Origin: Candidatus Helarchaeota archaeon
Lineage (GTDB): Archaea > Asgardarchaeota > Lokiarchaeia > Helarchaeales > HEL-GB-A
Assembly: GCA_013375455.1 (NCBI GenBank)
Contig: JABXJT010000131.1
Location: forward strand, 1-8,930
DNA: 8,930 bases
Direction of reading: 5' to 3'
Of this stretch, positions 78 through 8,692 are shown in pieces (within the stretch, counting starts at the first letter, position 1; each line of letters starts with the position of its first letter). The notes below the pieces were generated by a model that did not search any database, was not told the DNA's origin, and saw only the letters and a program-made list of their open reading frames with translations. Position numbers and translations under genes: made by a program.

Positions 78-305
78 ACCAAGCACCCCTGAGATCTCAG
101 CCTAACCCTACCCCCTTTTTTATAAAAGAAAGTAAGAAACCCGGATTAATATTTTTATCTCATTAACATTCTTCCACCTAATGAATAAATAAAAGTTAAA
201 GATAAATTTTTTCGGCGCTATCACCGAAATTTCCGGTTTAAATTCATCTTACACAAATTTTTTTTGCATAATAAATATTTAGATTATTAAGTTACCATTT
301 TATAG
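78..305. other. AT-rich intergenic spacer
   Basis: No open frame with coding character was seen here on either strand. The only ATG on the + strand (181) meets a stop after three codons. The stretch holds poly-A/T tracts, a weak inverted repeat (TTCGG at 211-215 against CCGAA at 224-228), and a TATA-like AT stretch near its right end. It probably carries the promoter of the ferredoxin-like gene that follows. Confidence 0.5.
268..281 (+). promoter_or_regulatory. TATA-box-like element upstream of the ferredoxin-like gene
   Basis: The stretch ATAATAAATATTTA lies about 25-40 bases upstream of the Shine-Dalgarno-like site at 306-314. That is the distance expected for an archaeal TATA box serving a short-leader transcript. 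The whole spacer is AT-rich, so chance matches are likely and the call rests on position only. Confidence 0.25.
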
Positions 306-314
306 AAGGTGATC
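306..314 (+). promoter_or_regulatory. Strong Shine-Dalgarno site that points at a TTA codon
   Basis: AAGGTGATC is an extended match to the complement of the conserved 16S rRNA 3' end (GATCACCTCC). Seven bases after the AGG the expected start-codon slot (317-319) holds TTA, in the frame of the downstream protein. The same seven-base spacing is used by the FAD/NAD(P)H gene in this window, where the slot holds ATG. The site supports translation starting far upstream of the first canonical in-frame start (TTG at 776). Confidence 0.5.
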
Positions 315-316
315 AC

Positions 317-1201
317 TTAAGGAAATACCTAAGTAGGCTAAAATCATTCCTAACAGGGCGAAAACAAAAGTTAGATCTAAAACCAATCGAAATCAATACC
401 CCAAGGGCAAATCGATGGAAGAAACTGATCAGGCTTGCTAAACTACCGATAATAAAACAAATATTTAAAAGATACCTCTTCCCCGATGGGTTTGAGACCC
501 AGACCGGTTCCCCCATACCAATTAATGTCTCCCTGAACGTATCGCTGGGGACGTATGAGGATCAAATATTACCCCTCATTGTCACGGAATACTTCATTAA
601 GAAGGCAGGGACGATCCTTCTAATAGACTGCCCCTGTCGAACCGCCAATAAGTGCAAAAATCACGATGTTAAATTAGGGTGTACCTGGCTAGGGCGCGGA
701 GCTGGCAAAGTCGATCGATCGAAATGGCCAGGGGCACGTCTTGCAACTAAAGAGGAAGCTTTAGAACGAGAACATTTGGCTTATGAAAATGGGTTGGTCC
801 CCCACTTAGGGAAGCTGAGAGGGGATGCGAAAGTATATGATGTATTAGAATATGAGCACGAATTCATGTCTATCTGTCATTGTTGCCCTTGCTGCTGTGT
901 TGTTGCCGTCTTTAAATATGGCCCCTCCGATTATAAAAAAGTGGTAAAACGAATGGAGGGGGTTGAGGTAAGGGTGAATCGTGATACCTGTGTGGGTTGT
1001 GGGACCTGTTTCAAAGTTTGCATCTTTAACGGCTTGAAGATGAAAGACGACAAGGCAATAATTGTTCAAGAAAACTGTATGGGATGCGGTCGGTGCGAAA
1101 GGGCATGTCCCAACAGAGCCATTTCCATTTCCATAGATGATTTCAGTCGGATTGATGAGTTGATTGCCAGATTCGAAGCGCGCGTGGATATATCTTCTTA
1201 A
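317..1201 (+). CDS. Cysteine-rich 4Fe-4S ferredoxin-like protein, non-canonical or damaged start
   Basis: The C-terminus is a two-cluster ferredoxin: CVGCGTCFKVC (from about nt 989) and CMGCGRCERACP (from about 1076) should bind two [4Fe-4S] clusters. Before it lie CPCRTANKC (629-655), GCTWLG (677-694) and the dense CHCCPCCC (875-898). I recognise this layout from a family of uncharacterised archaeal and bacterial ferredoxin-like proteins whose N-terminal half carries such extra Cys motifs. The first canonical in-frame start, TTG 776, would give 141 aa and cut off the CPCRTANKC half. The frame is open back to 275 and a good Shine-Dalgarno site precedes 317, so the listed product is about 294 aa. 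No ATG, GTG or TTG occurs in frame between 275 and 776, so initiation is at an unusual codon, or the 5' end is mutated or mis-sequenced. The N-terminus is basic, with no clear membrane segment. It is probably a soluble electron carrier or Fe-S enzyme; its partner is unknown. It converges on the Hdr operon. Confidence 0.7.
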   Translation, partial: LRKYLSRLKSFLTGRKQKLDLKPIEINTPRANRWKKLIRLAKLPIIKQIFKRYLFPDGFETQTGSPIPINVSLNVSLGTYEDQILPLIVTEYFIKKAGTILLIDCPCRTANKCKNHDVKLGCTWLGRGAGKVDRSKWPGARLATKEEALEREHLAYENGLVPHLGKLRGDAKVYDVLEYEHEFMSICHCCPCCCVVAVFKYGPSDYKKVVKRMEGVEVRVNRDTCVGCGTCFKVCIFNGLKMKDDKAIIVQENCMGCGRCERACPNRAISISIDDFSRIDELIARFEARVDISS

Positions 1202-1347: not shown

Positions 1348-2649
1348 TTAAAAAGGATTTTTATTCTCTAGTATTTTTTTCCTGTATTCGCTTAGGGGTG
1401 GTGGACACAATCCTTTTTGAGATGCTTCTCTCTTTAAGTTTCTCATCATTTCTGCCAAATCCACGCCCGCAGGACACCACTTCGAACACTTTTCACATCC
1501 CGTACATAAAAATAATCCAGATTTCACAGCTGCCTCGATTCCATCGTGAATATATTCACGAATAATGGCTGTTGCCCCTAATCCAAATCTCCCTCCGAAT
1601 ACATTACCAAATGCACGGGAGGACGTGCATACGAAATTACAACTTCTACAAGCGATGCATTTTAAAAGACTCTTATATATGAGATTTTCTTTAGCAGCGC
1701 GCGTACGCCATTCATCCACAAGGATAACAACCACTTCTTTTGTACCATACATCCCGATTGTTCTGCCACCTTGAATACTGGATGTACCTGAGGGGCCAAA
1801 TATAATACTCATATAGGCCATAGACACGGTAGGAGCTCTAGCCTGCATCTTAGCTACTAGTAATGCATCAAAAAATGTCGGAACGATTTTAGTAATTCCA
1901 ACAGCAACGATATGTTTCTCAGTGGCTCTCGTTATCAAACTAATATTCCCCGATCCCTCAACAAGTACAATCGATCCATCATCAGCGGCTATAGCGTTAG
2001 CTGAGGTCAATGCAACAGTTACGTTGTTAAGTAATTCTGGACGGTAAGTATCTCTGTAGTATTTCACTATCGCTTCTACTCGAGGCTCAATATCAACACC
2101 ATGCACTTCTTTCATTTTCGCCACGATTTCATTCACTGTGAAATGAGCTCCATGACCTAATTGGTAGGTAGGTAACTTGTAATCAAATAGTTCAACAAGA
2201 ATCTCGCCTATTTCAGTTTCTCTGATTTCAATGTTATTCTTCTTTAAAGCTCTTAAAATTCCAATATCTTTTGCTTCATTAGTCATTGATTTATAGATTA
2301 CCTTATTTTCTCCCAGCTCCTCCATGAATATTTTTTGAGCTTCTTGGTTAGTTTTTGCATAATAAACTTTAAATTGGTTGGTTTTTCTCATCCGTTCTAT
2401 ACATTTTTCTACATAATAATCCATATTTTCAATAAAATCTTCCCTGATTTTTATCAATCTATCCTTATATTTTTCGACAAACTCTCGACTTGAATCATCA
2501 TATCCATATCTTAAATCAGCTATTTCCCCCTTAGTTTCACATCCAAGCCTCCAAAAATCAACAAATTGTTTTTCTTTGGTCCCCTGTTCAGTTAATCGAC
2601 TAATTTTTTTCTTTATATTTTCATAGGATACTTTTCCTTTATCACTCAT
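1348..2649 (-). CDS. LutB/LldF-like LUD-domain iron-sulfur protein
   Basis: The 433-residue protein resembles LutB, the iron-sulfur subunit of the LutABC L-lactate oxidation system. A charged helical N-terminus (about 1-90) precedes a LUD (DUF162) domain, with ETEIGEILVEL near 144-154, GHGAHFT near 165-171 and the family-typical TSANAIAADDGSIVLVEGSGN region near 215-235. The C-terminus carries two [4Fe-4S] sites: C331, C334, C337, C341 (CIACRSCNFVCT) and C382, C385, C388, C392 (CTGCEKCSKWCP). The first site has Arg where Gly is usual and Thr where Pro usually follows the last Cys. It starts one base after the CCG-protein stop, with GGAGATGAT upstream, so the two are probably translationally coupled. 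No LutC or flavin lactate dehydrogenase is in view. In this operon its paired clusters may do the job of HdrC, relaying electrons between HdrA and the CCG subunit. The family is clear; the substrate is not. Confidence 0.9.
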   Translation of the reverse strand: MSDKGKVSYENIKKKISRLTEQGTKEKQFVDFWRLGCETKGEIADLRYGYDDSSREFVEKYKDRLIKIREDFIENMDYYVEKCIERMRKTNQFKVYYAKTNQEAQKIFMEELGENKVIYKSMTNEAKDIGILRALKKNNIEIRETEIGEILVELFDYKLPTYQLGHGAHFTVNEIVAKMKEVHGVDIEPRVEAIVKYYRDTYRPELLNNVTVALTSANAIAADDGSIVLVEGSGNISLITRATEKHIVAVGITKIVPTFFDALLVAKMQARAPTVSMAYMSIIFGPSGTSSIQGGRTIGMYGTKEVVVILVDEWRTRAAKENLIYKSLLKCIACRSCNFVCTSSRAFGNVFGGRFGLGATAIIREYIHDGIEAAVKSGLFLCTGCEKCSKWCPAGVDLAEMMRNLKREASQKGLCPPPLSEYRKKILENKNPF

Positions 2650-2650
2650 T

Positions 2651-3397
2651 TTAAATAATCATCTCCCCATTCATTATTTTTATGATAAAATCCTCCAATT
2701 TCATCACATCAGTTTTTATTTTTGCCTCTTCTTTAACTCTTTTCAATGCGGTGTAACAAAACGGGCAGGATGTTATGAGGACCTTTGCGTGCTTCCTTTT
2801 AGCTTGTTTGAAAATTAGGGGGGAATTATAATCGCTATCTTCTTTAAATACAGAGTAAACCCCTCCTCCTGATCCACAACATAATGAATTAAATGTATTA
2901 TTCTTCATTTCTTTTAATTGAATCTCCCCCTTTATTGAATTTAATATATTTCTTGGTTCCTCTATAATAGGATTCATTGCATTCCTTAAATGACACGGAT
3001 CATGATAAGCAATAGTAAATTTTTTATCCCCAGTGTATTTTAAATCTAATTTCTTAATATTTTCTCTTTTATTCATGAATTGAACGATGTGTTGAACTTC
3101 AATGTCAAAGTCATTTCCTAAGTATTCTATGTAATATCGCGATAAATAGTTGTAGCAACCAGCACAAATCGTTACAAGTTCAGTAATTTCATTAACCTTA
3201 AACCATTCGTTTACAGAATGTAAATGTTTTTTTAATTCATCATCGGAAGCGGTGTGAAATGCTAACGAACCACAACAAGGTGCATCATCAAGCACCTTAT
3301 ATTCCTTATCTAAGAATTTAATCAGCTTTATGGCATTCTCACAAGTTGCTATAAAATTTTTTCTACTTAAACAACCTAGAAATATGAGTTTTGACAT
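2651..3397 (-). CDS. HdrB/LutA-like protein with two CCG domains
   Basis: This 248-aa protein has two complete cysteine-rich CCG domains. The first is C9-x31-C41-C42-x35-C78-x2-C81; the second is C135-x37-C173-C174-x36-C211-x2-C214. The spacing matches the HdrB motif whose cysteines bind noncubane [4Fe-4S] clusters that reduce the CoM-S-S-CoB heterodisulfide in methanogens. The same fold occurs in LutA, GlpC and the glycolate oxidase iron-sulfur subunit. Length and the adjacent LutB-like gene favour a LutA type; the Hdr operon favours an HdrB-like role as terminal acceptor module. No membrane segment is visible. The ATG at 3395-3397 is preceded by GAGG at a long spacing (13 nt). A 43-nt gap separates it from the upstream gene, the largest in the operon, and its bases are markedly AT-richer than the hdrA side. 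The substrate (disulfide, or hydroxyacid via a partner) cannot be read from the sequence. Confidence 0.88.
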   Translation of the reverse strand: MSKLIFLGCLSRKNFIATCENAIKLIKFLDKEYKVLDDAPCCGSLAFHTASDDELKKHLHSVNEWFKVNEITELVTICAGCYNYLSRYYIEYLGNDFDIEVQHIVQFMNKRENIKKLDLKYTGDKKFTIAYHDPCHLRNAMNPIIEEPRNILNSIKGEIQLKEMKNNTFNSLCCGSGGGVYSVFKEDSDYNSPLIFKQAKRKHAKVLITSCPFCYTALKRVKEEAKIKTDVMKLEDFIIKIMNGEMII

Positions 3398-3440
3398 AAT
3401 AACGAAATTCCCTCAAAAAATGTAATTTTATTTTAATTTT

Positions 3441-4277
3441 TTATGTATCGGCTTTGATGTCCTTTAATACATCCCAACAGAAAACGGGTCCATCCTTACA
3501 GATATAGAAATTACCAACGTTACATCGTCCGCATTTCCCAATTCCACATTTCATTCTGGCTTCTAGTGTCGTGTAGATCTGATCAGGAGTAAAACCAAGT
3601 TTTTCGAGATTTTGAATGACAAATTTAATCATTATGGGGGGACCGCAGGTAATTGCTATGGTATTTTCGGGGGATGGGTTAACCTCCATCAGGTTTGTAG
3701 GCACGAAACCGACGAATCGGGTCCAACCTTCCTCCTCAACATCAATTGAAAGGTGAACATCCACGTCTTTACTTTTTTCGAGTTCAAATAACTCATCTTT
3801 ATAGACCAAATCACCAGATGTCCTGGCTCCATAGATAATTGTCAATTTTTTATATTTATTACGATTCGCGAGCACGTATTGTATTATAGGACGTAGGGGT
3901 GCCTGACCAATGCCTCCTCCTATGAAAAGTATGTTCTTGCCTTCCCATTCTTTCACTGGAAATGCATTACCATAAGGTCCCCTGGCCCCTACTACGTCTT
4001 CCACTTCTAACTCATGAATTGCTGAGGTGTTTTTTCCGGCTTTCATGACGGAAACTTGAAGGTGTTCTTTACCCCAACATGAAATTGCAAACATGCTTTC
4101 TCCAACGCCGAGAATGCTAAACATGATGGTCTGTCCTGGCATATAATTGAATGATTCTTGGACTTTCGGATCATTAAACGTGAAAGTGATGGTTTTTATT
4201 GGTCTTGCACTACCACCAACTTCTACTTTAACATCCTTTACCGTCGCTAATTGGGGGGTATAGGGACCGCTGCTCAT
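3441..4277 (-). CDS. FAD/NAD(P)H oxidoreductase subunit (FlxA / HydG / AsrB type)
   Basis: This 278-aa protein belongs to the ferredoxin-NADP reductase superfamily: sulfhydrogenase gamma, anaerobic sulfite reductase B, PyrK and FlxA. A beta-barrel FAD domain (about 10-105) contains YMPGQTIMFSI and ARGPYGNAF. A Rossmann NAD(P) domain follows, with IGGGIGQAPLRP at about 119-130 and a TCGPPIMIK segment at 210-218. The C-terminal C244, C249, C252 and C260 (MKCGIGKCGRC...YIC) should bind a [2Fe-2S] cluster. It is expected to oxidise or reduce NAD(P)H and exchange electrons with the neighbouring dicluster protein. The usual FAD-contact signature (often P-x-S-I-S in this group) reads MFAIS at 62-66. 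Its ATG overlaps the upstream stop by four bases (ATGA) and has a near-perfect AGGAGGT ribosome site seven bases upstream. It is the likely electron entry point of an Flx-Hdr complex. NADH versus NADPH cannot be decided. Confidence 0.9.
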   Translation of the reverse strand: MSSGPYTPQLATVKDVKVEVGGSARPIKTITFTFNDPKVQESFNYMPGQTIMFSILGVGESMFAISCWGKEHLQVSVMKAGKNTSAIHELEVEDVVGARGPYGNAFPVKEWEGKNILFIGGGIGQAPLRPIIQYVLANRNKYKKLTIIYGARTSGDLVYKDELFELEKSKDVDVHLSIDVEEEGWTRFVGFVPTNLMEVNPSPENTIAITCGPPIMIKFVIQNLEKLGFTPDQIYTTLEARMKCGIGKCGRCNVGNFYICKDGPVFCWDVLKDIKADT

Positions 4278-5296
4278 ACTGCAACCTCCTTCAGTTTTTG
4301 GAGTGCATCAAGAATATCGCAATTTTCAGGGCAGAGTTCGATGCATCGACCACATCCAACACACCCAAACATATTCACGTTCTTAGGGAGATAAGCGAAC
4401 TTGTGTAAAATTTTGTTTCGCATCCGTTCTGTTCGTGCTTGCCTTGGATTATGCCCTGAAGCATGCAATGTGTATTCACTACTTTGACAGGTATCCCAAA
4501 TCCGAATGCGGCATCCCTCTAATCCTTCCACTTCGTCTTGAATATCAAAGCAATAACACTCTGGGCAATTATACGTACAAATACCGCAGCCTAAGCATCT
4601 CATAGCTAAACGTTCCCAGATATCATTTTCCCACAATTGGTCTAATTTCTCGGTCAACCCTTTCGTATCAATACCCCGAACGAACTGTTCTAAAACACTC
4701 TTTTGAACTTGAGTCTTTTTCCTTTCATCGTCGTTCGTTGCGTCTTTGAAAAGAGATTTCGAATCGTTGACTACCGATGATCCCTTATCGGTTAGAATCT
4801 CGACGAAGTATTTCTCTCCTAAATCCGTTAAGGCAACATCGAGATTTTGGGTTCCTGAGGGTGAACCTTCCACCGAGGTGCAGAAACAATTGATATCTGC
4901 CTCATTACATGTCACTCCAATGAGAATTGAGTTCTCACGCTGTTTTGCATAATACACATCTAAATAATCCTTTTTGTATACCTCATCAATAACAGAGAGA
5001 CCTTTTGCATCGCAGGGGCGTATTCCGAGTACAACAAATTTCTCCGATGATCCTACGGTTGTTATCTCTTTTTCTTTCCCAAGCTTGAAAGTAAATAGAG
5101 TTTCAGTCTGTTTTAAAAACAAATCCTTAGGTGAAATTACCGTGTTAATATGATCTAATGTGATATCTTTAGGGTCTGATATTTGCTTATAGATTGGTAA
5201 ATCGTTTTTAAGAACTGGGGCATACAACACAAATTTTTTTATGATATCGTTTGCCCACTGCCCTAATTTATCTTTCATTAATACCTTATTCGCCAT
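4274..5296 (-). CDS. Dicluster 4Fe-4S protein, sulfhydrogenase beta (HydB) / FlxB-like
   Basis: The 340-aa protein resembles the beta subunit of archaeal sulfhydrogenase and FlxB of Flx-Hdr complexes. Its N-terminal domain has the family motif GIRPCDAKGL (91-100), followed by a Cys-containing TCNEADINCFC segment (129-139). The C-terminal half has two [4Fe-4S] sites: C234, C237, C240, C244 followed by C247 and C249 (CLGCGICTYNCPECYC), and C312, C315, C318, C322 followed by C326 (CVGCGRCIELCPENC). It probably wires the FAD/NAD(P)H subunit to MvhD and HdrA. It starts 12 bases after the preceding gene with GAGGGATGAT upstream, and ends in a 4-bp overlap with the FAD/NAD(P)H gene, so tight co-translation of the pair is likely. 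It shares order and motifs with the upstream dicluster gene, suggesting an old duplication. It is cytoplasmic, with no membrane helices. Confidence 0.88.
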   Translation of the reverse strand: MANKVLMKDKLGQWANDIIKKFVLYAPVLKNDLPIYKQISDPKDITLDHINTVISPKDLFLKQTETLFTFKLGKEKEITTVGSSEKFVVLGIRPCDAKGLSVIDEVYKKDYLDVYYAKQRENSILIGVTCNEADINCFCTSVEGSPSGTQNLDVALTDLGEKYFVEILTDKGSSVVNDSKSLFKDATNDDERKKTQVQKSVLEQFVRGIDTKGLTEKLDQLWENDIWERLAMRCLGCGICTYNCPECYCFDIQDEVEGLEGCRIRIWDTCQSSEYTLHASGHNPRQARTERMRNKILHKFAYLPKNVNMFGCVGCGRCIELCPENCDILDALQKLKEVAV

Positions 5297-5308
5297 ATTA
5301 TCATCCCT

Positions 5309-6295
5309 CTACATGATATCCTTGTCAATTACCTCATCTTTTGGATTGAAAACTCCAAGTAAGGGCTTCCCTTCCTCTTCTACACCGGGAACATAGTTAA
5401 ATATTCGCTTTATTTCCTTTTCTAGCTTCTTATACAACTTCGTAAGCGGAATTCCCTTAGGACAAGCTCTCTCGCACTCGCCACAGGCAATACATCTACC
5501 GGCTAAATGAAACGCACGCATGAGATGATAGGCTGTATTTTCAGAGATATTCACGCTTCTTCTTATCCACTGGGGATTTAATTCTATGGCTTTACAGGTT
5601 GGACAATAGCACATGGGGCATATGTTCTGACACGCATAACACCGAATACATTCAGTGAATTGATCTTCCCAGAACGCCCACCGTTCTTCAAAGTCCATAT
5701 TTTCCAATTCTTCGATTAACGTGTAATCCTCTTTCTTGGTTACCTTTACTTGCTTACCAACGAGATGATCAGAAATGACGGGATTAGGATACTCGCAAGT
5801 TAAGCACTTTTGCGCGATAATTTCATCCTTGGGAATTTCTACAGTTTTGTCTCCCGCCTTGACAACATACTTCCCGTCCTCTTCAGTGACATCGTCAACT
5901 TGCTTGATCCCCTTCAGCTTCGGTTTTAGCTTATTCAGATCGATAACGCCCACGCAAGGGAATCCAATGACGATAATTTGATCACGTTCAATACCTTTCT
6001 CATTTAGGAGTTGGATGATAGACCGACTGTCGCAACCCTTTACAAGGATTACTATTTTCTTTTTTTCTGCCGTTTGCCCTCGTGGTAACGGTAATTTTTC
6101 CTCTTTTGTTAGGAAAGTTGCCAAATTCGCAACGCATAATGGATTATAGATAAACTTATCGACATCTTCGGGCGAGATTGCAAAGGATGGTCTCGTTCTT
6201 GCACCGTATGTCCCCTTCTCCCAGCCAATGGCGTATTTGACATCGTCTTGTTTGACTAAGTCTTTTATTAAGGCTTTCATCTCTTCTAGGTTCAT
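5309..6295 (-). CDS. Dicluster 4Fe-4S protein, FlxC-like
   Basis: The 328-aa protein is organised like its downstream neighbour. An N-terminal domain contains VKGCDSRSII (85-94), GFPCVGV (111-117) and CLTCEYPNP (164-172). A C-terminal half carries C216, C219, C222, C226 with extra C229, C231 and C234 (CIRCYACQNICPMCYC plus PTC), and a second [4Fe-4S] motif at C268, C271, C274, C278 (CIACGECERACP). The CDSRS segment corresponds to RPCDAKG in the paralogue. Such proteins sit between MvhD and the NAD(P)H-oxidising subunits in Flx-Hdr clusters and are thought to carry electrons; no catalytic centre is evident. Its ATG overlaps the mvhD stop by four bases (ATGA), with GAGGGTG just upstream. The C-terminal tail after about residue 285 is charged and probably helical. 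Assignment to FlxC is by position and architecture; general databases may call it only a 4Fe-4S dicluster protein. Confidence 0.85.
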   Translation of the reverse strand: MNLEEMKALIKDLVKQDDVKYAIGWEKGTYGARTRPSFAISPEDVDKFIYNPLCVANLATFLTKEEKLPLPRGQTAEKKKIVILVKGCDSRSIIQLLNEKGIERDQIIVIGFPCVGVIDLNKLKPKLKGIKQVDDVTEEDGKYVVKAGDKTVEIPKDEIIAQKCLTCEYPNPVISDHLVGKQVKVTKKEDYTLIEELENMDFEERWAFWEDQFTECIRCYACQNICPMCYCPTCKAIELNPQWIRRSVNISENTAYHLMRAFHLAGRCIACGECERACPKGIPLTKLYKKLEKEIKRIFNYVPGVEEEGKPLLGVFNPKDEVIDKDIM

Positions 6296-6732
6296 TTAGC
6301 CAGCACCCTCTGAAACTTTTTAATTGGCCCTAATTTTTTAACATCATTCACGACTTCTGTCACTACTTCGGCCCAGCGAGTGCCTTCCGATGCTGATACC
6401 CACGAAAGTCGAAATCGTTCTGGTTCAATGCCAATATATCTCAATAATTCCCGTAAAATCGCAAATCTTCTTCGCGTGTAATAATTCCCGTAAATGTAAT
6501 GACAATCCCCAATATGGCAGCCGGATATTAAAACGCCATCCGCACCTTGCTGAAGTGCATTTATGACAAATAAGGGGTTAATTCGGCTGGAACACATTAC
6601 TCGAATGATTTTTACATTATGCGGGTATTTAATTCTGCTCGTACCTGCGAGATCTGCTCCTGCGTAGGTACACCAGTTACATAAGAAGGCTACAATATTT
6701 GGCTCAAAATCGTCCGTGCTCAATTTACGCAC
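6292..6732 (-). CDS. mvhD: MvhD/FlpD/FlxD-type [2Fe-2S] electron-transfer subunit
   Basis: At 146 aa this is a full-length MvhD, the small subunit that passes electrons from hydrogenase, formate dehydrogenase or Flx proteins into HdrA. The family signature is intact: FLCNWCTYAGADLAG (C18, C21), VMCSSRI (C47) and GCHIGDCHY (C72, C77), which hold the [2Fe-2S] cluster. It lies directly after hdrA, as usual for HdrA/MvhD pairs, and before two dicluster proteins rather than hydrogenase genes. The GTG start used here overlaps hdrA by eight bases, but the AGGAGG site (6734-6739) is only one base from that GTG. A TTG three codons in (6721-6723) has a 10-base spacing and may be the true start, giving 143 aa and no overlap. 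No residue of the signature is lost either way. Confidence 0.95.
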   Translation of the reverse strand: MRKLSTDDFEPNIVAFLCNWCTYAGADLAGTSRIKYPHNVKIIRVMCSSRINPLFVINALQQGADGVLISGCHIGDCHYIYGNYYTRRRFAILRELLRYIGIEPERFRLSWVSASEGTRWAEVVTEVVNDVKKLGPIKKFQRVLAK

Positions 6733-8692
6733 CCCTCCTGCAAAAGGTTTCGATTATTGCAAGAATTTGGTTATCCTTGAAATGTCTTTGCTCCATCGCT
6801 CCTGAGAGACAAACCGCATTACAACATCCACACCCCTTACATAAAGCTTCGTTGACAGACGCAACAGTTACGAGATGCCCATATCTATTTACCTCTTTCA
6901 GTTCGATGGCAGTGTAGGGACATACTTCTACACAGAATCCACAGCCACGACATTTCAATTCATTCACGATGGAGGTTATTGGTTCAATTAACAACTGATC
7001 CTGCGATAAAATTTCGCATGTTTTAGCTGCCGCCCCGCTCGCTTGTGCGACAGTATCTGGAATATCTTTTGGAGCTTGCACGCACCCTGCTAAAAACACT
7101 CCATCGGTAAAAGTATCAACTGGACGCAGTTTGGGATGGGCCTCCATTAAAAACCCGTCTGGACTACGTGAAAGATTGAATAACCGTGCCAATTCCGATA
7201 AATTATCTTTAGGAACAAGACCAACGCCCAGAACAACTAAATCGAAATTCAATTCAAGTGGGCGATCTAAAAGCGTATCTTCCGCTCTTAAAGTTAAGCT
7301 TTTATCAGGATTCTCATAAATCTCAGCGACTCGCCCTCTTATAAATCGAACTCCAGGCGTATTTTGCGTGGCATTATAAAATTCCTCGAATCCTTTTCCA
7401 AAAGCCCTGACATCGATGTAAAACAAGTAGCATTCCGCTTCAGGATGCTTTTCTTTATATAGTCGTGCCTGTTTTATTAAATACATGCAACAAACTCGAC
7501 TGCAATACGGGTTAAAACCCTCCTGTAAACTCCTGCTTCCAACGCAATGAATGAAGGCGATACCTTTAGGGTGTTCCTTTGGGTTTGATATTTTGACGAC
7601 ATCACCCAAGGTTGGTCCAAACGAACTGAAAAGCCGTTCCATTTGGAGACCATCGATGACATTTTCATATTTTCCATAGCCATAGAATTCAGCTCTAGAG
7701 GCATCGAAGACATCATATCCAGATGCCATGACTACAGCACCCACCTCTACCACTTCATCCTCTGATTTCAAATTAAGATCGATTGCCTCAGGTTCACATG
7801 GTTTAATACACAAACCACATTTAATGCACGTGTCATCATCGATTACGTATTTATTGGGAACAGCTTGCGGAAAGGGGATGTAAATTGCCCTTCTTGGGCT
7901 CATCCCGAGCTCAAATTCATTAGGGACAATGACAGGACATATATCTGCGCAATCCCCACACGCATTGCACTTGTCAGGGATTACGTAAGTAGCCTTCTTT
8001 CTGATTGTAACCTTAAAATTCCCAATATATCCTTCGACTTGTATAACTTCCGTATTGGGGAGCAGAACAATGTTTGGATGCCTTCCCACGTCTGACATTT
8101 TAGGAGTCAAAATACAAGCCGAGCAATCCAGAGTTGGGAACGTTTTATCAAGCTGTGCCATACGTCCCCCGATCGTAGGCGATTTTTCCACTAAATATAC
8201 CTTAAAACCATTGTTAGCTATATCCAGCGCAGCCTGAATGCCTGCAATACCGCCCCCAATCACCATTGCTTGGTGTGTCACCCCGACTTTCGTTTTTATA
8301 AGAGGTTCCAGTAATGCTGCACGACTCACGGATCCTGCTATCAATGTCATCGCTTTCCGTGTCGCATCTTCCCTACTTGTATGGACCCACGAATTTTGTT
8401 CTCGAATATTTACCATTTCAAAACAGTAGGGGTTCATGCCAACATTTTCCACGGTGGCTCTGAAAGTAGGTTCGTGCATGCGTGGTGAACAGGCGGCTAC
8501 AATCACCCTATCTAATCCTAATTCTTCCACATCTTTCTGAATCATTTCCTGTCCGGGATCGCTGCACACAAATTTATACCATCGTGCTATTGCAACGTTG
8601 GGCAAGTCCTTCGCAAACTCTACGACTTTCTCCATATCTACCATGGATGCGATATTAATTCCGCACTCACAAACATAGACTCCTATTTTCAT
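6725..8692 (-). CDS. hdrA: HdrA, flavin-containing electron-bifurcating subunit of heterodisulfide reductase type
   Basis: This 655-aa protein is a full-length methanogen-type HdrA, the subunit whose FAD splits electron pairs between a low-potential (ferredoxin) and a high-potential path. In order it has an N-terminal thioredoxin-reductase-like linker domain with VCECGINIA (7-15) and CSPRMHEPTFR (68-78); the FAD-binding GGGIAG (146-151); CSACILTPKM (190-199); an inserted two-cluster ferredoxin (C242/245/248/252 and C289/292/295/299); HCVGSR (382-387) and YCSRVCCMYLIKQA (396-409); then a C-terminal two-cluster ferredoxin (C581/584/587/591 and C618/621/624/628). The last motif ends CLSGAM, with Leu for the usual Pro. 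It opens the leftward operon with AAGGAG six bases before ATG and is followed immediately by mvhD. No hydrogenase genes lie nearby, so electrons probably enter from NAD(P)H via the Flx-like subunits. Whether the acceptor is a CoM/CoB-type disulfide is unknown. Confidence 0.96.
   Translation of the reverse strand: MKIGVYVCECGINIASMVDMEKVVEFAKDLPNVAIARWYKFVCSDPGQEMIQKDVEELGLDRVIVAACSPRMHEPTFRATVENVGMNPYCFEMVNIREQNSWVHTSREDATRKAMTLIAGSVSRAALLEPLIKTKVGVTHQAMVIGGGIAGIQAALDIANNGFKVYLVEKSPTIGGRMAQLDKTFPTLDCSACILTPKMSDVGRHPNIVLLPNTEVIQVEGYIGNFKVTIRKKATYVIPDKCNACGDCADICPVIVPNEFELGMSPRRAIYIPFPQAVPNKYVIDDDTCIKCGLCIKPCEPEAIDLNLKSEDEVVEVGAVVMASGYDVFDASRAEFYGYGKYENVIDGLQMERLFSSFGPTLGDVVKISNPKEHPKGIAFIHCVGSRSLQEGFNPYCSRVCCMYLIKQARLYKEKHPEAECYLFYIDVRAFGKGFEEFYNATQNTPGVRFIRGRVAEIYENPDKSLTLRAEDTLLDRPLELNFDLVVLGVGLVPKDNLSELARLFNLSRSPDGFLMEAHPKLRPVDTFTDGVFLAGCVQAPKDIPDTVAQASGAAAKTCEILSQDQLLIEPITSIVNELKCRGCGFCVEVCPYTAIELKEVNRYGHLVTVASVNEALCKGCGCCNAVCLSGAMEQRHFKDNQILAIIETFCRRGA
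6734..6739 (-). promoter_or_regulatory. AGGAGG ribosome-binding site inside the hdrA end, bearing on the mvhD start
   Basis: The consensus AGGAGG sits in the last codons of hdrA. It is one base from the GTG at 6732 and ten bases from the TTG at 6723. Other genes in the operon use roughly 6-9 bases, so the site fits TTG better. Translation of mvhD is probably coupled to termination of hdrA. Confidence 0.5.

Follow-up and report, generated by a model that had tools for sequence, protein, structure and literature searches.

An HdrA–Flx operon of a Helarchaeota archaeon ending in a CCG–LUD gene pair: a candidate route joining NAD(P)H, ferredoxin and a 2-hydroxyacid

The DNA considered here, the window, is a stretch of 8,930 nucleotides out of the 46,231-bp contig JABXJT010000131.1 (assembly GCA_013375455.1) of an Asgard archaeon, Candidatus Helarchaeota archaeon. 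An open reading frame (ORF) listing of the window gives eight frames of at least 80 amino acids (aa), and seven of these, spanning 1348–8692, lie on the minus strand. In the order of transcription, from 8692 to 1348, they encode HdrA, MvhD/FlxD, FlxC, FlxB, FlxA, a double-CCG protein, and a protein in which a LUD domain is joined to two [4Fe-4S] motifs; we refer to the last two as the CCG–LUD pair. An earlier note on this DNA had described seven packed, leftward genes with these identities, and the ORFs, their spacings and their family matches bear it out. The features are as follows:

6725..8692, minus strand: HdrA, 655 aa, candidate bifurcating flavoprotein with an FAD domain and with inserted and C-terminal ferredoxin domains
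6292..6732, minus strand: MvhD/FlxD, 146 aa, link protein; GTG start, 8-bp overlap with hdrA
5309..6295, minus strand: FlxC-like dicluster protein, 328 aa; Fer4_17
4274..5296, minus strand: FlxB-like dicluster protein, 340 aa; Fer4_22, 105 bits
3441..4277, minus strand: FlxA-like FAD/NAD(P)H and [2Fe-2S] subunit, 278 aa; NAD_binding_1, DHODB_Fe-S_bind
3398..3440, minus strand: spacer between flxA and the CCG gene, 43 bp, A+T-rich, with a GAGGG stretch ahead of the ATG of the CCG gene
2651..3397, minus strand: CCG protein, LutA/HdrB-like, 248 aa; PF02754 in two stretches
1348..2649, minus strand: LUD protein, LutB-like, with an HdrC-like 2x[4Fe-4S] part, 433 aa; PF02589, 94 bits, and Fer4_8

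All seven frames have clear family matches, so a gene-calling artefact was ruled out. Besides hdrA and mvhD, two further gene pairs overlap, mvhD/flxC and flxB/flxA, by 4 bp each; 12 bp separate flxC from flxB, and a single bp separates the CCG gene from the LUD gene. We infer that the seven genes are transcribed together. The first five resemble FlxABCD–HdrABC of anaerobic bacteria (Ramos et al. 2015, as cited in PMC12054007, PMC4759654 and PMC5861303), a system also described from Asgard archaea (PMC7015854). As in that system, an HdrA with FAD and ferredoxin domains is followed in operon order by MvhD/FlxD, FlxC, FlxB and FlxA. The difference is that hdrB and hdrC are absent beside hdrA—within the window, neither occurs downstream, and the 238 bp upstream hold no hdrB-sized ORF—and that the CCG–LUD pair follows flxA, instead.

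HdrA aligns over its full length with five solved HdrA chains (8rvu, 8rvv, 5odc, 9sfi and 7bkb; E ≤ 2e-215), and scores 881 bits with the HdrA2 model, below a cut-off of 1100 that includes a fused MvhD part. Both it and its relative in G084, the genome with the closest flx–hdrA locus, have E352 and K407, positions that would match flavin-site residues of the 5odc enzyme. MvhD, presumably a [2Fe-2S] protein, has five cysteines, matches FlpD (PF02662) with 186 bits, and finds 7bkb_F, the closest, and 5odc_D among solved chains. FlxB resembles the beta subunits of sulfhydrogenase and AsrA, with scores below the cut-offs of both models, and the nearest solved chain to FlxA is the gamma subunit of sulfhydrogenase 1 (9nez_C, E 6.7e-60). 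The order mvhD–flxC–flxB is found again in Asgard relatives; one scan of viral contigs, with FlxC as the query, found no relative.

The CCG protein has two complete five-cysteine motifs, C9–C41C42–C78xxC81 and C135–C173C174–C211xxC214. Behind one better match, taken up below, its closest solved chains are those of HdrB (8rvv_B, 8rvu_b, 5odc_B and 9sfi_C; E 6e-8 to 2e-6). Among curated models the best is TfrB, of the coenzyme M/coenzyme B (CoM/CoB) fumarate reductase, with 122 bits against a cut-off of 385; the HdrB models are missed by more (50 bits against 345, and 35 against 450), and the first CC stands in 'CCGSL' where HdrB has 'CCPAPG'. The LUD protein ends, at its C-terminus, in two CxxCxxCxxxC motifs, and this end matches HdrC chains of known structure (E 4e-4 with the sequence alone, 8e-7 with a profile). 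The profile search of solved structures matched no LUD-domain structure, and its top row was a designed repeat protein, a chance match whose separate stretches are not significant. On these grounds the last two genes are HdrB-like and HdrC-like in anatomy: the ligand patterns agree with those of HdrBC, whereas the curated cut-offs of both HdrB and HdrC (29 bits against 160 for the latter) are missed.

Likenesses to lactate-oxidizing systems are of the same kind. As in LutABC, a LutA-like double-CCG protein adjoins a lutB-like gene. LutB carries a C-terminal domain, whereas none was found in the LUD protein by a domain family scan, and its score with the LutB model TIGR00273 is 177 bits against a cut-off of 444.8. 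LdhH is the large subunit of a quinone-type L-lactate dehydrogenase (NCBIfam NF045670), and the two proteins of the pair, P0001 and P0002, map to successive parts of it (model positions 40–403 and 470–704) with 163 and 80 bits; the cut-off is 800. Here, in contrast, there are two genes, and no LdhG-type partner occurs in the window. Since the curated cut-offs are missed, true LutB or LdhH identity was ruled out; falling far below the thresholds for LutB, LdhH, HdrB and HdrC alike, the pair is, as judged from its sequence, a distinct branch built like these proteins rather than a member of any of them.

The pair was followed through Asgard genomes with the LUD protein as the query: 227 genomes searched at E ≤ 1e-60 gave 51 places in 49 genomes, of which 50 loci were compared (G179 was left out). 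A scan of genome contigs gave two Lokiarchaeota loci only. In a wider search, of 5.8 billion proteins, the named organisms among the best 120 LUD matches listed are Asgard, too: Hodarchaeota, Promethearchaeota, Lokiarchaeota, Thorarchaeota and others. In 47 of the 50 loci the LUD gene is immediately preceded, on the same strand, by the CCG gene; the remaining three have a LUD gene truncated by the end of the contig. All 18 cluster cysteines—10 in the CCG protein and 8 in the LUD protein—are kept in all 44 free-standing Asgard pairs examined, and in all 44 the two genes overlap or lie at most 15 bp apart. Identities between CCG proteins run parallel to those between LUD proteins (Spearman 0.92 for 946 pairs, uncorrected for shared ancestry). 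The pair thus appears, from these comparisons, to be a free-standing, co-evolving unit. Five short loci (L051, L052, L077, L078 and L088) were left out of the cysteine, neighbour, tree and upstream comparisons.

The company that the free-standing pair keeps is of one flavor. Neighbors were counted in 45 loci and named from a domain test of one example each. Genes for the alpha and beta subunits of 2-oxoacid:ferredoxin oxidoreductase each occur in 21 of them, divergent from the pair in 19 cases and on the same strand in two. Other recurrent neighbors encode galactarate/altronate-dehydratase-like (16/45), SAF-domain (15/45) and RidA-like (16/45) proteins, a hydroxyaspartate-aldolase-like protein and aldehyde ferredoxin oxidoreductase (14/45 each), and methylmalonyl-CoA mutase (9/45). 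At one locus (L073, 8442–16943) a run of genes on one strand begins with CCG–LUD and continues with a ferredoxin-like gene, 2-oxoacid oxidoreductase-like alpha, beta and gamma genes, a flavoprotein of FrhB plus DHODB type, and aldolase-like and RidA-like genes, named by homology to domain-tested genes, except for the gamma subunit, named by look only; this run may be a hydroxyacid/oxoacid oxidation operon in its own right. The recurrent neighbors and the L073 run suggest, by association, a 2-hydroxy/2-oxoacid chemistry with ferredoxin and a nicotinamide or F420 carrier as partners; a 2-hydroxyacid couple was one of the two, beside a disulfide one, that the earlier note had proposed. Some of the neighbors may simply be common by descent.

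Our reading of the operon, which we hold at a little short of an even chance, is that it encodes an HdrA-centered bifurcating or confurcating system in which the CCG–LUD pair serves the third couple, and that this couple is most likely a 2-hydroxyacid/2-oxoacid such as lactate/pyruvate, and not CoM-S-S-CoB. The tight, same-strand order, with its overlaps, speaks for this, and so does the empty place of hdrBC, filled by CCG–LUD after flxA, where the closest flx–hdrA relative has canonical hdrC–hdrB in its operon and 12 of 20 flx loci have hdrB/hdrC-like genes. The matches to HdrB and HdrC, the conserved cysteines and parallel identities of the pair, its neighbors elsewhere, the lactate use reported for Loki-3 (PMC8027215) and a second contig, of 19,264 bp, taken up below, favor it too. 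Since the LUD protein has an HdrC-like two-cluster tail and the CCG protein has HdrB-like motifs for non-cubane clusters, the pair could occupy the HdrC–HdrB place and dock on HdrA there, which would give the single complex that the earlier note had proposed. FlxA would take up or release hydride as NAD(P)H, FlxB, FlxC and MvhD would pass electrons to the HdrA flavin, and the ferredoxin domains of HdrA would exchange electrons with ferredoxin; the pair, a putative LutC-less 2-hydroxyacid (lactate) dehydrogenase module, would give the electrons of the third couple to HdrA. In the presumed oxidative direction, lactate + reduced ferredoxin + 2 NAD(P)+ would yield pyruvate + 2 NAD(P)H. Standard potentials are −190 mV for lactate/pyruvate, −320 mV for NAD and −420 mV for ferredoxin. 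The conversion of lactate and reduced ferredoxin to 2 NADH is nearly thermoneutral (the ΔG0' given for the Lct reaction is about +6 kJ/mol; PMC5861303), and HdrA could thus run it either way. The lactate reading is plausible, resting as it does on neighbors and distant homology. In its narrowest form, HdrC and HdrB would be replaced by the LUD protein with its HdrC-like tail and by the double-CCG protein, and the whole would be a soluble lactate (2-hydroxyacid) dehydrogenase of Asgard archaea, built on HdrA and confurcating with ferredoxin; this we consider less likely than not, though not far-fetched.

Such an enzyme would be the HdrA-based counterpart of LctBCD from Acetobacterium woodii, the EtfAB-based confurcating lactate dehydrogenase (PMC5861303). 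The proposed overall reaction, from lactate and reduced ferredoxin to NADH, is the same, whereas HdrA would be the flavin site and LUD–CCG the lactate site; no EtfA, EtfB or LctD homologue occurs among the eight ORFs of the window.

Several observations weigh against this reading. The pair lies behind Flx–HdrA in none of the 50 loci, 43 of which are informative; in the other seven (L051, L052, L057, L060, L078, L084 and L089) the contig ends too close upstream. What does occur near the pair is more distant: HdrA-like genes of about 43% identity some 5–13 kb away in four loci (L043, L075, L080 and L084), and in L086, at 7 kb, an FlxC of 34% identity with its own CCG-motif gene behind it. When the 51 LUD places were set against 111 FlxC places, only one genome (G137; 7 kb, the FlxC at 34%) had both within 20 kb on one contig; in G084 the two share a contig at a distance of about 850 kb. 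The FlxC places come from a search of the same 227 genomes at E ≤ 1e-20 (92 genomes), and wide stretches were examined for 20 of them. None of these 20 flx loci has the CCG–LUD pair, and 12 have hdrB/hdrC-like genes, recognized by cysteine motif and size, in the same cluster; of the remaining eight, several are truncated where the stretch or the contig stops. The closest relative of the window's flx–hdrA genes, in G084 (HdrA 81%, MvhD 84%, FlxC 75%, FlxB 57%), has a canonical hdrC–hdrB upstream of hdrA (TIGR03290, 199 bits against 160; TIGR03288, 426 against 345) and no LUD gene nearby. A conserved seven-gene family was ruled out on these counts, and a condition that the earlier note had set for giving up its reading, a pair not kept next to Flx–Hdr in relatives, largely applies; one further contig, discussed below, probably repeats the linkage. 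Of the proposal that LutAB-like proteins had replaced HdrBC, what stands is the HdrB/HdrC-equivalent anatomy and the absence of hdrBC beside this hdrA while G084 has it; the linkage, in contrast, is not conserved. With the pair free-standing in relatives, canonical hdrC–hdrB in G084 and one further contig only, the replacement is a lineage-level arrangement and not a conserved trait.

The proteins and the seam between the two blocks count on the same side. Among solved chains the CCG protein comes closest not to HdrB but to an 'iron-sulfur-binding reductase' (9ojn_A, E 6.7e-14), and the HdrC match of the LUD tail is a weak one. A search with the LUD family found a single LUD gene in seven of eight Asgard genomes—and hence no LutC in those seven—while a frame of 663 aa in G084 holds a second; the window has no second LUD protein. 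With LutC missing from these seven genomes, and the LutB and LdhH cut-offs so far out of reach, specificity for lactate is not established. The widest gap of the operon, 43 bp, falls at the seam between flxA and the CCG gene, where the finding rests, and this A+T-rich stretch could hold a separate promoter. A scan for sigma-70 promoters, the wrong type for archaea, and for terminators gave matches no more frequent than in shuffled sequence, and no common promoter motif was seen by eye upstream of 36 free-standing pairs and the window's own (37 rows; pairs of more than 40% identity were taken in).

The further contig is a case of its own. In the search of 5.8 billion proteins, for which the best 120 matches were listed with the longest contig of each protein cluster, FlxA (P0248, 99%), FlxC (P0128, 96%) and LUD (P0009, 81%) all have a match on an 'ena' contig of 19,264 bp. 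From this identical figure, among the matches listed, we judge that the contig probably repeats the flx/LUD linkage. One of the closest FlxA relatives among the matches listed is from Helarchaeota. More distant FlxA and FlxC relatives (73–84%) occur together on contigs of 31,427, 35,094, 32,737, 14,419 and 12,349 bp, none of which sizes is found among the best 120 LUD matches, and a LUD relative of 77% (P0010) lies on a 23,109-bp contig that has no FlxA or FlxC among the matches listed. In a quick tree of 114 rows (68 of 119 listed homologues, 45 locus proteins and the window), P0009 groups with P0010, and not with the LUD protein of the window, with a support (SH-aLRT, the Shimodaira–Hasegawa-like approximate likelihood ratio test) of 100. 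The flx genes are near-identical between the window and the 19,264-bp contig, yet the LUD proteins share only 81% and the other contig's LUD groups with that of a contig without listed flx; the flx and LUD blocks therefore seem, by sequence, to have different histories. Three explanations offer themselves: an exchange of the pair at this place, a much faster evolution of the pair than of the flx block, or a misleading agreement in the figure of 19,264. In any event, the discordance weakens the idea of an obligate, long-standing complex.

Perhaps the two blocks are neighbors only. CCG–LUD would then be an independent 2-hydroxyacid oxidoreductase that hands its electrons directly to ferredoxin or some other carrier, as in other Asgard archaea, and that came to lie after flxA in a single lineage, while HdrA–Flx uses HdrBC from elsewhere, or none. 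This is the main rival, which we hold to be only somewhat less likely than our own reading. The 43 informative loci, in every one of which the pair is free-standing, the hdrBC carried by HdrA–Flx relatives (canonical in G084), the discordant histories of the two blocks and the 43-bp gap before the CCG gene all favor it, and a plain precedent exists in Desulfotomaculum reducens, for which an HdrA–Flx locus without hdrBC has been reported (PMC4759654). It sits less well with the want of hdrBC beside the window's hdrA, with the common strand and close spacing, and with an HdrB/HdrC-like anatomy that fits the gap.

If the pair does work with HdrA, as we prefer to think, it might instead be a true substitute for HdrBC, one that reduces a disulfide or thiol carrier, with LUD as a new binding site in an otherwise ordinary NAD(P)H/ferredoxin/disulfide Flx–Hdr. 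The complete double CCG motif, as in HdrB, would suit this, as would TfrB as the best curated model (its 122 of 385 bits notwithstanding); yet the HdrB models are far from their cut-offs, 'CCGSL' replaces 'CCPAPG', the neighbors of the pair indicate oxo- and hydroxyacids, and no LUD-containing disulfide reductase is known to us, which leaves the idea improbable. Less probable still is that the same complex works in reverse during fermentation, oxidizing NAD(P)H, reducing a 2-oxoacid and generating reduced ferredoxin. The reaction lies close to equilibrium (PMC5861303), and Asgard archaea have been described as syntrophic degraders of amino acids with fermentative traits (PMC7015854). Our data, however, carry no signal of direction, and lactate uptake by Loki-3 points the other way (PMC8027215).

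If the operon does encode an HdrA-centered system with a 2-hydroxyacid arm, it bears on a question that, to our knowledge, has not been settled for anaerobic archaea without quinones: the electron acceptor of LUD-type lactate oxidation. A pair placed behind HdrA–Flx names a concrete route: to NAD(P)H and ferredoxin, through HdrA. The high-potential arm of HdrA would then be swappable as a module, the Lct reaction would have been invented independently of EtfAB, and LUD-type lactate dehydrogenases without LutC and quinone would have a partner complex. Lactate uptake has been reported for Lokiarchaeota (PMC8027215), and the operon suggests a way in which Asgard archaea might make oxidation of the lactate type pay.

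Parts of this picture have been drawn before. LutA/LutB-like genes of Lokiarchaeota, together with use of 13C-lactate by Loki-3, have been reported (PMC8027215), and are probably the same Asgard-specific pair family, a match made by description and not by sequence. As in the window, no LutC is mentioned in the available text; it differs in that no HdrA partner is named there, and 'hdr' and 'heterodisulfide' occur 0 times in the main text. The three-gene lldEFG cluster of Archaeoglobus fulgidus includes a LutC-type gene, whereas the window has no LutC. For this LldEFG/LutABC, electron transfer to the HdrA-related Qmo has been proposed, and Desulfovibrio alaskensis is cited likewise (PMC3949148). 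That proposal, too, has a lactate module of LUD and CCG type deliver electrons to an HdrA-type protein; the difference is that Qmo is membrane-bound and serves reduction of adenosine 5'-phosphosulfate (APS), whereas the window has soluble Flx subunits. We found no combination of HdrA with a LUD domain in the open-license literature, and recognized no description there of HdrA–Flx with CCG–LUD, mostly among titles and the starts of abstracts.

Other arrangements came to light among the flx loci. In G084 (L121, 10857–13198) flxA is absent from the cluster, and flxB is followed by a radical-SAM/SPASM gene and a VhuG-like (Oxidored_q6) gene. A second Asgard group (L122–L124, L126 and L129–L132; domains were tested in L122) has Flx–HdrA–hdrC–hdrB flanked by 2-oxoacid:ferredoxin oxidoreductase genes and by a fumarate-reductase-like pair of FAD and FeS proteins, possibly a different terminal couple for Flx–Hdr. 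Large Asgard clusters (L134, L136, L138, L139 and L140) combine HdrA-like proteins some 1000 aa long with additional MvhD copies upstream of flxCBA.

The remaining ORF of the window (305–1201, plus strand) is convergent with the operon and encodes a cysteine-rich (CHCCPCCC) protein with two 4Fe-4S motifs. Its frame runs without interruption to the stop from 305 or earlier, yet contains no ATG, GTG or TTG before 776; the listed start at 776 is thus probably too late, or else a non-standard start codon or an error in the sequence plays a part.

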